64,000 nt of DNA from Engraulis encrasicolus. Its lineage: Eukaryota; Chordata; Actinopteri; Clupeiformes; Engraulidae. Where the stretch lies: assembly GCF_034702125.1 (NCBI RefSeq), contig NC_085873.1, positions 42,105,224 through 42,169,223 of the forward strand. The letters are read 5' to 3'. The notes beneath the pieces are model-generated. The model had not been told where the DNA came from, searched no databases, and saw nothing but the letters and a program-made list of their open reading frames with translations. The position numbers and the translations under genes were made by a program. Positions 4,294 to 62,898 of this stretch are shown one piece after another; the first letter of the stretch is position 1, and every line of letters starts with the position of its first letter.

Positions 4294-4562
4294 GTTATAG
4301 ATAAATTCCCATTCAAGTGTAAAGAAATCCAGCACACTGTCCATTCCACCAAATAACTTTAATACAACGTTTCGGTCATCCGACCTTCTTTTACCTGAAG
4401 AAGGTCGGATGACTGAAACGTTGTATTAAAGTTTGTTGGTGGAATGGACAGTGTGCGGGATTTCTTTACACTTGAATGACAACCCCACTGGGATAATATC
4501 CTACGCACCTGCCCAACTGCAGAGGTGTGCAAAAGCGTCCTTGTTGAACTGTTAGTAAATTC
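4294..4562 (+). mobile_element. Inverted-dimer element with hammerhead-like core (copy 1)
   Basis: A near-perfect palindrome covers about 4310-4482, and the right arm continues to about 4549. The right arm starts with CTGAAGA (4395), then GGTC-GGAT-GACT, then GAAAC (ending 4419). This resembles a hammerhead core CTGATGA / stem II / GAAAC with one core change. Past the palindrome, ACGCACCTGCC (4503) and GAGGTGTGC match the long arm of the 36.9-kb copy, so one arm is full length and the other truncated. The flanks gttatagataaattc (4294-4308) and gttagtaaattc (4551-4562) may be a TSD with a small indel. Confidence 0.65.
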
Positions 4563-5106
4563 ACACCACTCCTACCACCCTTGCCATAGGACTCTCAGAG
4601 TTTCAGAGCCACCACAGAAGGCTGTTTACTGTATGTGTGTGTGCCTCTGCGTGCATCCCTGCAGTGGTCTGATAGGACTGGGTGCAGTGTTGGCACATCA
4701 ATAAATCCTCCTGGAGAAATGTGCATGGGGTCATTTAGTAGGTGCAATCTATCTACAGCAGATTCAAAAAAAGTCTGGCCTTGGTGCCCACATCATTCCG
4801 AACCCATTTTATAGAAATCATCCAACTATAACACTGTCTTCAAAAAGGCAATCTTATATCTTTTGTCTCTTGACCCTAACGATAAATTCAAGAGTACTTG
4901 GAAAAATAGTCTCCCACTTGTTTAAAAAAAAATAATTCATCGGATTTGCACAGGTGAGATTTGCTCTTATTCAGTGAAACATATGCTATAGGATATTGTG
5001 ACGTCAAGGGTAAGCCAGCTTTGGCATTTGACCCTGCTCATATTCTGTAGTGTCTCTGCAGAATTAATGCGTCAATGTCCTCCCCAACAACTAGAGAACT
5101 CATTGA
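4563..5106. other. No recognisable feature
   Basis: Unremarkable sequence leading into a GA microsatellite. No repeat shared with the rest of the window was noticed. Confidence 0.45.
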
Positions 5107-18416: not shown

Positions 18417-18583
18417 TGTTACTGCTGCAATGTTTAAAGAAGGAGGCCTCACCTTGCATAGCAGTGTTTTTTATTGCACAGACGCGTTTCGGCGTTTAAA
18501 ATTTGGGCCAGCACCCTCAGAGACTTTAATAATTAAGAGTGACGCCTGCTCTAAGAAGAAAATCGACATTGTTACTGCTGCAA
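18417..18583 (-). mobile_element. Monomeric element with hammerhead-like core (copy 4)
   Basis: A 139-bp element (18431-18569) lies between perfect 14-bp direct repeats tgttactgctgcaa (18417-18430 and 18570-18583). Read on the minus strand it contains CTGAGGG, then GGTGCTGGCCC, then CCGAAACGCGTC, and ends near CCTTCTTTAAAC. The GAAACGCG and TTCTTTAAAC segments are shared with the inverted dimers at 37.2 and 36.9 kb. The first core block differs from CTGATGA. The long TSD without terminal inverted repeats points to retrotransposition. Confidence 0.72.
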
Positions 18584-22884: not shown

Positions 22885-23206
22885 TGAAAGAAAGTGAAAG
22901 CCCATTGGGAAACTCCAACTCCCATTGTCATTGTGACACAGCACTCCACAGCACACAAGTGAACACTGCACACTGCACACAACGAAATTGCATTTATGCC
23001 TCACCCGTGCAAGGGGGCAGCCCTCAGTGGCGCCCCATGGGGAGCAGTGCGGTAGAGCGGTACCATGCTCAGGGTACCTCAGTCATGGAGGAGGATAGGG
23101 GAGAGCACTGGTTGATTACACCCCCCACCAACCTGGCGGGTCGGGAGTCGAACCGGCAACCTTAGGGATACAAGTCTGACGCCCTAACCGCTCACCCATG
23201 ACTGCC
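22885..23206 (-). mobile_element. tRNA-derived SINE, family I (full length, minus)
   Basis: On the minus strand the element opens GGCAGTCATGGGTGAGCGG (A-box region) and has a perfect B box GGTTCGACTCC about 45 bp on. A body of about 220 bp follows, with GGTACCCTGAGCATGGTACC and TGCACGGGTGAGGC, and it closes in a CTTTCA-type tail (22885-22905). Other copies: 25.2 kb (plus), 29.0 and 32.6 kb (minus). Pol III transcribed and LINE-dependent by analogy with other SINEs. Confidence 0.85.
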
Positions 23207-23368
23207 CTATTATTATCATCTCTCTTGGAATTAGAAATAACAGGGGAATTTAAAGGAACAGTCCACCGTGTTTCAATAATCAAGTGTATTCTTCTCTGAC
23301 CTGAGAAGAGCTCCTCCCGACCTGCCTCGTCTTTGGACGCGCCCCCAGTCAGCAACGCGTGCAGCAAA

Positions 23369-23874: not shown

Positions 23875-24135
23875 ATGGAAACGGGACTAGCCGGGGAGGA
23901 GAAATAGGGCCCGGGCACTTTTGGCTTAAAAGGGACCTTCATAATTAGTGGCGCAGAACTGACTCACCGACAGGCCCCGCACCCTCGTGGGCCCCTATTT
24001 TCAAAAATGTAATGTGTAAATGTAAAATGTACTTTTCTGAAAATAGAGGCCCACAAGGGTGCAGGCCACAAGGGTGCGGGCCAACCGGGAAATGCCCACT
24101 ATGCCAGATGGCCAGTCCAGCCCTGCATGGAAACG
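23875..24135 (-). mobile_element. Family A hAT-like element, copy 2 (minus)
   Basis: The element lies within 23884-24126 and ends GGCCAGTCCAGCCCTG. It holds the internal hairpin CCTCGTGGGCCCCTATTTTC / GAAAATAGAGGCCC and the AATTAGTGGCGCAGAACTGA module. The 9-bp repeat atggaaacg flanks it (23875-23883, 24127-24135). The left terminus is truncated to GGACTAG. Confidence 0.82.
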
Positions 24136-26767: not shown

Positions 26768-27009
26768 TCCGTCTTCAGGGCTGGACTTGCCACATGGCAT
26801 AGTGGGCATTTCGCAGTGGGCCATGCACCGTCGTGGGCCCCTATTTTCAGAAATGTTTAAAAAAAAGTAAAACATTTTTAAAGATAGGGGTCCACGAGAG
26901 TGTGGGGCCCATGGGTGAGATGGTTGTGCGCCGCTAATTATGAGGGGCCCATTTAAGCCAAAAGTGCCCGGGCCCTATTTCTCCCCCATGTCAGCCCACC
27001 ATTCGTCTT
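26768..27009 (+). mobile_element. Family A hAT-like element, copy 3
   Basis: Starts CAGGGCTGGACTTGCCA at 26776 and ends in a degraded CAGCCCACC near 27001. The flanks tccgtctt (26768-26775) and ttcgtctt (27002-27009) match at 7 of 8. Hairpin arms TCGTGGGCCCCTATTTTC and AAAGATAGGGGTCCACGA are present. Confidence 0.85.
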
Positions 27010-28800: not shown

Positions 28801-29011
28801 AGTAAAAGGTATCCTCAGTTCGTAGCCCTGTGTAGTTATACTATGCTGCAAGAAAGAGATGCAATCAACACCATAAACAGTAGGCATTATCCATACAAGG
28901 GGAATTTTGGTCAGTTTTTCACTGATGGTGGAAAACGTCATGAATGACCCCACTTACTTGTCACCAATGGCAATAAGAAAGAGTTCAAAAGAGGGACATT
29001 TAGGCAAAAAA

Positions 29012-29213
29012 CCCGTGCAAGGGGGCAGCCCAAAATGGCGTCCGAAAGGGAGTAGTGCTGCGGGACAGTACCATGCTCAGGGTACCTCAGTCATGGAGGC
29101 GGATGGGGGAGAGCAATGGTTAATTACTCCCCCACAAACGTGGCAGGTTGGGAGTCGAACCAGCAACATTTGGGCTACAAGTCTGACGCCCTAACTGCTT
29201 ACCCATGACTGCC
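29012..29213 (-). mobile_element. SINE family I, tail-truncated (minus)
   Basis: Retains the tRNA-like head at its right (GGCAGTCATGGGTAAGCAG on the minus strand, B box GGTTCGACTCC) and about 150 bp of body. The tail half beyond GCCCCCTTGCACGG is missing. Confidence 0.82.
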
Positions 29214-29515
29214 ATTAGATTTCCAGGGATGAACCCACAGCACCAGAAAACATTCAGTGGACTGTTTGCCTTCCTTTTGCAGCAAAGCTTGTGTGCATGA
29301 ACCCTCCTTGGGGAGGAAGATTTCTTTGCGCTCCCCTCACCCCCCTTCACCTCCCCTTTAAGGGATGATGATTGCCTTACACACAACTCATTCCACCCCC
29401 AGTAATTTTGTCTAATTCCCCACGTCCCTTACACCGCGTCGTCCCAATCAGGCCTCATTGTGTTCTGATGGACCGGCTGTCTCCTCAACACTCCACCATT
29501 AGACGAGCGCCAATG

Positions 29516-32636: not shown

Positions 32637-32935
32637 GTGAAAGTGAAGTGTGAAAGTGTCATTGTGACACAGCACTCCACAGCACACAATTGCACTCTGC
32701 ACACACCAAAATTGCATTTCTGCCTCACCTGTGCATGGGGGCAGCCTCCAATGGCGCCCGAAAGGGAGCAGTGCGGCGGGACGGTAACGTGCTCAGGGTA
32801 CCTCAGTCTTGGAGGAGGATGGGAGAGAGCACTGTTTACAGTACTTACTCCCCCCACCAACCTGGCGGGTCGGGAGTCGAACTGGAAACCTTTGGGCAAC
32901 AAGTCTGACGCCCTAACCGCTTACCCATGACTGCC
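32637..32935 (-). mobile_element. SINE family I, near full length (minus)
   Basis: Head at the right: GGCAGTCATGGGTAAGCGG on the minus strand, with a B-box region AGTTCGACTCC. The body extends through GTGCATGGGGGCAGCC to a CTTTCACTTCACTTTCA tail at 32637-32658. Same orientation as the copies at 22.9 and 29.0 kb. Confidence 0.85.
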
Positions 32936-32973
32936 CTAATATGGTGACTCTCCAGGAAACCCAGACCAAAAAG

Positions 32974-36834: not shown

Positions 36835-37145
36835 TATTCTCAATCCATCGTTAAACTTCGGCTTTTTTCGCACACCTCAGCTGGCAGGTGCGTCGGAGAT
36901 GGCACCATGGGTCACTCAGCAATAGTTTGAAGAAACTCCCGCACACTGACCATTTCGCTGTTCATTCTTTAATAAACGACGTTTCGGTACTAGACCTTCA
37001 TCAGGCAAGATTGCCTGATGAAGGTCTAGTACCGAAACGTCATTTATTGTCTGATGAAGGTCTAGTACCGAAACGTCATTTATTAAAGAAAGAACAACGA
37101 AATGGTCAGTGTGCGGGAGTTTCTTTAAACTATTCTCAATCCATC
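36835..37145. mobile_element. Inverted-dimer element with hammerhead-like cores (copy 2)
   Basis: A 281-bp insertion (36850-37130) lies between perfect 15-bp direct repeats tattctcaatccatc (36835-36849, 37131-37145). It is two head-to-head units. The minus-strand unit runs left from its core (36981-37004) and extends to 36850. The plus-strand unit starts at 37015 and stops near 37130, so one arm is full length and the other truncated. Each core is CTGATGA, AGGTCTAGTACC, GAAAC. The right arm has the core twice, as a 36-bp tandem. Both arms share GTGTGCGGGAGTTTCTT. Confidence 0.82.
37015..37074 (+). ncRNA. Tandem hammerhead-like ribozyme cores
   Basis: Two identical modules (37015-37038, 37051-37074) each read CTGATGA, A, GGT-CTAGT-ACC, then GAAAC and GTC. 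CTGATGA and GAAAC are the invariant hammerhead blocks, and the intervening GGT/ACC can pair as stem II. Stem III would be at most very short, as reported for hammerheads in Penelope-like elements, which are thought to act as dimers; the tandem fits that. Stem I pairing is not obvious. Self-cleavage is inferred, not shown. Confidence 0.42.
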
Positions 37146-37166: not shown

Positions 37167-37487
37167 AGGCAATGCAACTTAAGGAAGAAAAATCCGCACT
37201 CACAAACTGCGTCTCATTATTTATTTATATTACCACCATGTCCAAAAAGCAAACGCGTTTCGGCTAACAAGCCTTCATCAGTGCGTGACCACGCACTGAT
37301 GAAGGCTTGTTAGCCGAAACGCGTTTGCTTTTTGGACATGGTGGTAATATAAATAAATAATGAGACGCAGTTTGTGAGTGCGGATTTTTCTTCCTTAAGT
37401 TGACGCTTTTTATCTCGCACCCAAAGACTTTCGTTTTTCCAAGAAGTTGAGCGCGTCCTCTGCCAATACTTGAAGGCAATGCAACTT
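37167..37487. mobile_element. Inverted-dimer element with hammerhead-like cores (copy 3)
   Basis: An insertion at 37181-37473 lies between perfect 14-bp direct repeats aggcaatgcaactt (37167-37180, 37474-37487). It contains a nearly perfect palindrome (about 37175-37402) centred near 37288, then about 70 bp of right arm only. Each arm begins CTGATGA, A, GGCT-TGTT-AGCC, GAAACGCG: a clean 4-bp stem II. It shares GTGAGTGCGGATTTTTC with the GTGTGCGGGATTTCTT of the other copies but is otherwise a different subfamily. Confidence 0.82.
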
Positions 37488-56793: not shown

Positions 56794-57031
56794 GGGGCAG
56801 CCGTGGCCTAGTGGTTAGAGAGTTGGTCTTTCGATCAAGGGGTTGCAAGTTCGAATCCCCCCTGACCTCTCCCTACATCTCCAACCATGGCTGAAGTGCC
56901 CTTGAGCAAGGCACCTAACCCCACATTGCTCCAGGGAATGTAACCAATACCCTGAAAAATAATAACTGTAAGTCGCTTTGAATAAATGAAAGCGTCAGCT
57001 AAGTGCAATGTAATGTAATAATGTAATGTAT
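56794..57031 (+). mobile_element. tRNA-derived SINE with LINE-like tail
   Basis: The head GCAGCCGTGGCCTAGTGG has an A box, the B box is GTTCGAATCCC, and the body contains CTTGAGCAAGGCACCTAACC. The tail TAAGTCGCTTTGAATAAA ends in ATGTA repeats. Architecture (tRNA head, body, LINE-like tail) is that of a fish SINE, distinct from families H and I. Confidence 0.82.
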
Positions 57032-62651: not shown

Positions 62652-62898
62652 CACAGGCACAGGGCTGCACTGGCCATCTGGCATAACGGTCATTTCCTGG
62701 TAGGCCCCGCACCCTCGTGGGCCCCTATTTTCAGAAATGTTTAAAAAAAAAAAAAAATTTTACATTTCTGAAGATAGGGGCCCACGAGGGTGCGGGGCCC
62801 ACCGGTGAGTCAGTTCTGCGCCACTAATTATGACGGGGCCCCTCTGAGCCAAAAGTGCCCGGGTCCTATTTCTCCTCCAGCCCAGCCCTGCACAGGAG
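62652..62898 (+). mobile_element. Family A hAT-like element, copy 5
   Basis: The element spans 62660-62890, CAGGGCTGCACTGG to CAGCCCAGCCCTG. The flanks cacaggca and cacaggag match at 6 of 8. Long internal hairpin CGTGGGCCCCTATTTTCAG / CTGAAGATAGGGGCCCACG around an A run and a T run. Confidence 0.88.

Follow-up and report, generated by a model that had tools for sequence, protein, structure and literature searches.

Unequal head-to-head arms in a dispersed non-coding family with a predicted hammerhead core: a probable non-autonomous Penelope-like element

Penelope-like elements (PLEs) and animal retrozymes are the closest known systems to the elements described here. In the Anolis study (PMC11167929), the purified PLE cleaves and extends both target strands and starts within its RNA at two adjacent sites, most often at an AC-rich stem-loop; the stretch between the two start sites corresponds to the genomic ‘tail’, and mutation of the hammerhead is without effect on insertion. 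This last result is compatible with a core positioned upstream of the cut and retained in the copies, and speaks against cleavage being required. In rotifer PLEs (PMC3846280) inverted pLTRs stand head to head and one of the two may bear a tail, the palindromes being ascribed to self-priming. Animal non-LTR retrozymes are presented in two reports (PMC7229834, PMC7761336) as short, non-coding elements with type I hammerheads, lacking a clear helix III in amphibians, with duplications longer than 4 bp and PLEs as the suspected partner.

The family considered here resembles PLEs of the Penelope/Poseidon clade (PMC11167929, PMC3846280) in the head-to-head arrangement with a tail on one arm (here in 43 of 46 two-arm loci), variable-length target duplications, a minimal (here predicted) hammerhead and internal starts that include a (here predicted) AC-rich stem-loop. 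It differs from PLEs in that no ORF is seen, the arm consisting only of hammerhead, downstream part and tail; in a tail of 62–74 nt, about twice the 30–40 nt quoted for PLEs; in a second end that is not always at the internal site P; and in microhomology at the insertion site, whereas the start site of the Anolis enzyme is not homologous to the cut DNA. Duplications are mostly 14–16 bp, against 8–10 bp in the rotifer copies quoted. With animal retrozymes the family has in common a short non-coding body, a (here predicted) type I hammerhead, duplications longer than 4 bp and a suspected PLE partner. Tandem full monomers, a retrozyme trait, were recognised in none of the 80 loci over the roughly 450 nt to either side of the core; inverted pairs are found instead, and element C has only a 36-nt doubled core. 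Small hammerhead variants with a reduced stem III, linked to PLEs, were reportedly described by Lunse, Weinberg and Breaker in 2017; these presumably agree with the present core in CUGAUGA...GAAAC, in stems I and II and in ACGU or ACGCGU in place of stem III, and differ from it in the extra A between core and stem II seen here.

Elements in the 64-kb window

The window, that is the whole 64-kb stretch of DNA analysed, contains four elements, A to D (Table 1). The original prediction described three of them as head-to-head palindromes with one long and one short arm, and three as flanked by perfect 14–15-bp repeats. Both descriptions are borne out: A, C and D are such palindromes, with the short-arm end at a fixed place, and the duplications of B (14 bp), C (15 bp) and D (14 bp) are perfect, that of A (about 14 bp) being decayed. 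Element D is a perfect palindrome (37175-37287/37290-37402) with 113-nt arms that are 100% complementary and 2 nt between them. The arms of A extend over 81 nt with 95% complementarity, and the inverted arms of C (36921-37008/37047-37134) over 88 nt (94%). As predicted, C carries TATTCTCAATCCATC on both sides and a doubled core in one arm, the doubling being confined to the right, short arm; its long arm measures 159 nt.

Table 1. Coordinates of elements A to D in the window (D-type, ending at the distal site D; P-type, ending at the internal site P)
Feature	Position	Strand	Remark
Element A left target site duplication, decayed	4298..4311	.	TAGATAAATTCCCA
Element A short arm, P-type 3′ end	4312..4390	-	
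Element A long arm, D-type 3′ end	4391..4552	+	core 4395-4419
Element A long-arm tail	4479-4552	+	predicted GCACC hairpin
Element A right target site duplication, decayed	4553..4565	.	TAGTAAATTCACA; one base lost and one changed relative to left
Element B left target site duplication, 14 bp, perfect	18417..18430		
Element B single arm, degenerate core CTGAGGG...GAAACGCGT	18431..18569	-	end at TTCTTTAAACA
Element B right target site duplication, 14 bp	18570..18583		
Element C left target site duplication, 15 bp	36835..36849	.	exact repeat of 37131-37145
Element C long arm, D-type 3′ end	36850..37008	-	core 36981-37004
Element C long-arm tail	36850-36920	-	predicted GCACC hairpin
Element C short arm, P-type 3′ end	37011..37130	+	hammerhead-like core present twice, 37015-37038 and 37051-37074
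Element C right target site duplication	37131..37145	.	first 4 nt (TATT) = element continuation
Element D left target site duplication, 14 bp	37167..37180	.	last 6 nt (CAACTT) = element continuation
Element D short arm, P-type 3′ end	37181..37287	-	core 37257-37281
Element D long arm, D-type 3′ end	37290..37473	+	core 37296-37320, tail 37403-37473
Element D right target site duplication	37474..37487	.	14-bp repeat of 37167-37180

The long arm exceeds the short arm by 74, 71 and 71 nt in A, C and D when microhomology is counted as element, so that the ‘truncation’ of the short arm falls at a fixed place and not at random; the excess is 76, 75 and 77 nt when microhomology is given to the target. 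The short-arm end matches the duplication over six bases in D, four in C and two in A, and the CAACTT of the left duplication of D would pair with the RNA template.

The core pattern CTGATGAN{6,20}GAAAC has five matches in the window against 0.21 expected, a number reached in none of 100 shuffles. The prediction of a core common to all four elements holds for A, C and D, where CUGANGA ... GAAA is present, and fails for B, a single decayed arm whose CTGAGGG in place of CTGANGA leaves only a partial family fit. Related 3′ segments had also been claimed. The A/C alignment scores 110 against a shuffle maximum of 33, while A/D and A/B do not stand out from shuffled sequence (their scores are reached by 164 and 144 of 500 shuffles), C/D similarity runs through the core only (1 of 500) and C/B and D/B are weak (7 and 27 of 500). 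Thus A and C form one family, and D and B are like them in core and layout, not in sequence.

By our own count, the window and the next 50 kb contain seven elements, three of them with a perfect core (C, D and one in L138). The adjoining 50 kb holds a near-complete family K copy (L138, 8053-8206), an A-family arm with its end at P (L139, 912-998) and a family F pair without a perfect core (L140, 7281-7547). A Pfam scan of 10 of the 65 ORFs of the window gave no match and no PLE coding sequence.

Other repeats also occur in the window. A near-perfect hairpin repeat with a MITE-like look (1310-1406) matches miRNA precursor models below gathering scores, and a MITE-like hairpin repeat family (GGCCCCGCACCCTCGTGGGCCCCTATTTTC...) without hammerhead core lies at 23974-24066, 26817-26909 and 62701-62799. 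Three copies of a dispersed repeat (22967-23213, 28975-29220 and 32691-32942) look tRNA-derived (SINE-like) by eye, ARAGORN finding no tRNA in them. At 56955-57012 there is a weak match to the UnaL2 LINE 3′ element (35.4 bits against a gathering score of 55).

The predicted hammerhead core

The original prediction described the core as hammerhead-ribozyme-like. An Rfam covariance search of the window, the check named there, returned no hammerhead at gathering score or at E ≤ 10 among 46 matches; in the absence of stem III this test is probably weak and no match would be expected. MicroRNA models matched the palindromes as hairpins only, below gathering scores, and were set aside. Comparative support comes from seven families, across which stem I covaries and stem II pairs.

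At the hammerhead register, stem I forms 23 consecutive pairs in total over the seven families (each entered by eye as a consensus or a sample sequence, with both arms mixed in the A entry), against a mean of 6.3 and a maximum of 13 in 1,854 between-family mispairings, and register shifts of 1–2 leave only 1–3 pairs. The pairs differ from family to family: UGC/GCA in D, ACAU/AUGU in F, GGUC/GACC in K, GGUGU/ACACC in J, GUA/UAC in A, and two pairs each in C and G. Stem II has 3–5 pairs in all seven; its outer GG/CC is imposed by the search pattern in six of the seven families, and the third pair is C-G, T-A or G-C. The nucleotide at the predicted cleavage site is C or U, not G, in seven of seven, and ACGU or ACGCGU occupies the place of stem III in every family, its first three letters being pattern-imposed in six. 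All sampled families have the extra A between core and stem II; the search pattern imposes it everywhere but in the window copies, which show it directly. A viroid hammerhead is said to carry an extra nucleotide in its core, at what we take to be the same position.

Minimum-energy folding of core pieces gives other structures, such as a UGAUG/CGUCA stem in C. This alternative stem, between UGAUG and the bases after GAAA, has 5/5 pairs in C, F, G, K and J (in J two bases further on) and 4/5 in A and D. Its outward continuation is the +2 register, with 2 pairs against 23, so that it does not account for stem I; it was set aside as an explanation of the core and may compete with the hammerhead in some RNAs. 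From sequence comparison, the core is predicted to be a stem-III-less type I hammerhead, with stem I covariation as its comparative support.

Beyond this genome, the first core pattern matches 16 stretches of viral contigs with unrelated flanks, as expected by chance, and a second pattern five stretches, two of them (L017 and L018) outside the 16; the tail pattern has no match in viral contigs, and the GTDB contigs gave none. As a raw count, all five consensus tails have GCACC 18–32 nt after P, within or at the edge of a predicted stem; the predicted structure is a simple hairpin in C, F, G and K and a branched stem in D. At the other end, the family G copies L054, L080 and L121 have 65–118 nt upstream of the hammerhead in common, so that longer transcripts may exist.

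Arm geometry and insertion junctions in 80 loci

The pattern CTGATGAAGGN{4,10}CCGAAACG has 2,191 exact matches in the genome (1,433,290,184 bases, with the window at C17:42105224-42169223) and a reversed-pattern control none. The repeats have a vertebrate look, probably that of a fish. The number of matches undercounts the copies, since only three of the seven elements in the window and the next 50 kb have a perfect core. Sampling drew on the matches listed, which come from the first 35.75 Mb of contig C1, and covered 89 loci with 100 core matches. Eight loci from families without consensus were left out (L067, L098, L106, L114, L117, L122, L124 and L137) and of the duplicate pair L068 and L070 only L068 was kept, leaving 80 independent loci; an additional copy in L091, some 400 bp off, was not counted. 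L068 and L070 represent a single insertion that has been duplicated: they align over 1,458 bases with 95.8% identity. As loci were picked by a perfect core and on one contig, copies without a perfect core are missed.

Arms are head to head in 46 of the 80 loci and tail to tail in none; 31 loci have a single arm, and in three others the arms are split into two aligned pieces. A full arm is about 160–190 nt long and non-coding. Two sites recur as outer ends, the distal site D and the internal site P, 62–74 nt upstream of it. The end pairs of the 46 two-arm loci are D/P in 28, D/other in 15 and P/other in three, with neither D/D nor P/P, so that the second end is outside P in 15 pairs and a D end is missing in three. 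Exactly one D-ended arm is thus present in 43 of 46, where label permutation gives a mean of 23.1 and a maximum of 37 in 20,000; it lies on the left in 22 pairs and on the right in 21. The non-D end falls within 10 nt of P in 29 of the 43 (uniform expectation: mean 6.3, maximum 16), a clustering that is partly circular, both the P windows and the consensuses having been set by eye on these very loci. Twelve of the remaining 14 ends lie 14–74 nt upstream of P and two lie 15 and 18 nt downstream, and P is also the end of 11 of the 31 single-arm copies.

Exact flanking repeats of at least 10 bp are found in 39 of 80 loci (28 of 46 two-arm and 11 of 31 single-arm copies) and none such in 41. They measure 11–20 bp with a mode of 15, and six of the 39 have a low-complexity look (L051, L079, L099, L112, L113 and L119). 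In 28 of 46 loci one duplication pair flanks both arms together, whereas repeats of 10 bp arise in 0.2% of 3,996 comparisons of permuted flanks. Against this figure, palindromes formed by chance, or by recombination between separate insertions lying side by side, are scarcely credible, and no point in their favour was found. Hardly more probable is a fold-back or MITE-type DNA transposon. Its inverted-repeat shape would fit, and MITE-type hairpin repeats are also present in the window; however, a DNA transposon ends in terminal inverted repeats that match each other and makes short duplications of fixed length, whereas here the outer ends are unlike between the arms, one at D and one not, in 43 of 46 loci, the duplications vary over 11–20 bp, and 11 of the 31 single-arm copies are flanked by duplications as well.

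The sample therefore agrees with the predicted dispersed, non-coding inverted-dimer retroelement (46 of 80 head to head, 28 of these 46 with exact repeats of 11–20 bp) and with duplications of the 10–20-bp class instead of the DNA-transposon type. The idea that it inserts mainly as inverted dimers needs qualification: it describes the 46 head-to-head loci, but not the 31 single-arm copies nor the pairs without arm overlap.

Arms overlap in 38 of the 43 D-containing pairs; in the other five they have nothing in common and are separated by gaps of 33, 19, 14, 0 and 0 nt. A rival explanation is self-priming, in which a cDNA or antisense transcript would fold back at the hammerhead end and copy itself, the short arm marking where copying stopped. 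Such a process has been proposed for rotifer Penelope elements from palindromic head-to-head junctions (PMC3846280). The arms of element D are identical at 113 of 113 positions, and fold-back is possible, though not needed, in 32 of the 43 pairs. In the other 11 (L056, L057, L065, L073, L074, L086, L110, L112, L118, L123 and L136), however, it is excluded: the D-ended arm stops at consensus position 34 or beyond and the other arm starts at 1–7. The short arm has 5′ sequence that the D-ended arm lacks and hence was not copied from it; equally, the short arm has no D tail, so that the tail of the D-ended arm was not copied from the short arm. Seven of these 11 loci have 14–17-bp duplications, one of them (L112) of low complexity. 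Also against self-priming are the five pairs without common sequence, the short-arm ends, which lie mostly near one site that also ends single-arm copies, and element C, where the core is doubled in one arm only. Overall, self-priming is a quite unlikely explanation.

Filler sequence lies between the two arms at the head-to-head junction of L061, L111 and L126, and that of L061 resembles a piece of the element itself; these fillers may record template switching.

At the non-D junction, 17 of the 28 two-arm loci with duplications have 1–4 nt of microhomology. The mean is 1.21 nt over the 28 loci when four with a gap between arm and duplication (L079, L086, L112 and L119) are entered as zero, a value reached in none of 20,000 permutations, and 1.42 nt in the 24 ungapped loci against 0.38 in controls. 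This junction count supersedes a cruder estimate of 2.9 nt by alignment overlap.

Microhomology at an internal primer site is also what the main rival would produce, namely an ordinary SINE mobilised by a LINE, with inversions from L1-style twin priming. In L1 twin priming the two target strands prime on the RNA, giving the same head-to-head geometry as seen here with internal priming at microhomology, and duplications of 14–16 bp, as found in this family, fit LINE insertions. In contrast to L1 twin priming, the internal start here lies mostly near one site and the arms usually overlap; the preferred internal start, the overlap in 38 of 43 pairs and the hammerhead-like 5′ end fit PLE anatomy better. 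By inspection the D ends have no poly-A or simple-repeat 3′ tail, and ARAGORN finds no tRNA in the window. A LINE-mobilised SINE is on this evidence an unlikely source of the family, if a less remote one than self-priming.

Two-sided priming as a candidate route of integration

From the observed arm geometry, end positions, duplications, microhomology and covariation, we consider it probable that the family is a non-autonomous PLE integrated by two-sided, asymmetric target-primed reverse transcription. The unequal ends are likely to mean that each strand of the cut DNA primed one copy. In this reading the 5′ end of the element carries a stem-III-less hammerhead and its 3′ tail a GCACC hairpin, both predicted, and a Penelope-like reverse transcriptase would insert it by acting on both target strands at once. 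The enzyme would make staggered cuts, some 15 nt apart, that expose a 3′ overhang on each strand; one of these would prime cDNA at the distal end D of the element RNA, tail included, and the other at the internal site P, often after pairing of a few nucleotides with the RNA. Both cDNAs would then run toward the 5′ hammerhead and be joined there head to head. If both were complete, probably on two RNAs, the product would be a palindrome with one long and one short arm; early stopping of the D-primed strand would give arms that overlap partly or not at all, and a single productive strand would give a single-arm copy. A literature search over titles and abstract openings, with most subscription papers outside its coverage, returned no description of one-D-one-P pairing.

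A more tentative extension, rather unlikely as it stands and somewhat less so than a LINE origin, is that two element RNAs, joined head to head through their hammerheads, serve as a dimeric template for two reverse transcriptases arranged symmetrically. In place of stem III, ACGU or ACGCGU, being self-complementary, would then pair between the two molecules, and one reverse transcriptase per target strand, starting at D and at P, would proceed toward the common hammerhead junction, the point at which the cDNAs would be joined. If so, the main job of the ribozyme would be to pair templates, as in retroviral genomes, rather than to cut, and PLEs would normally integrate by programmed priming from both strands.

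Two-sided priming, with or without such a dimer, touches on a point of PLE biology where palindromic copies have been ascribed to self-priming and where both-strand extension from two internal starts is seen in vitro. The family offers a natural record of many integration events, without an ORF in the way. Within the sample, two-arm insertions follow a near-strict rule, with one start distal and the other non-distal, and one class of them is beyond the reach of fold-back copying. The family also gives comparative support for a predicted hammerhead that standard models miss.
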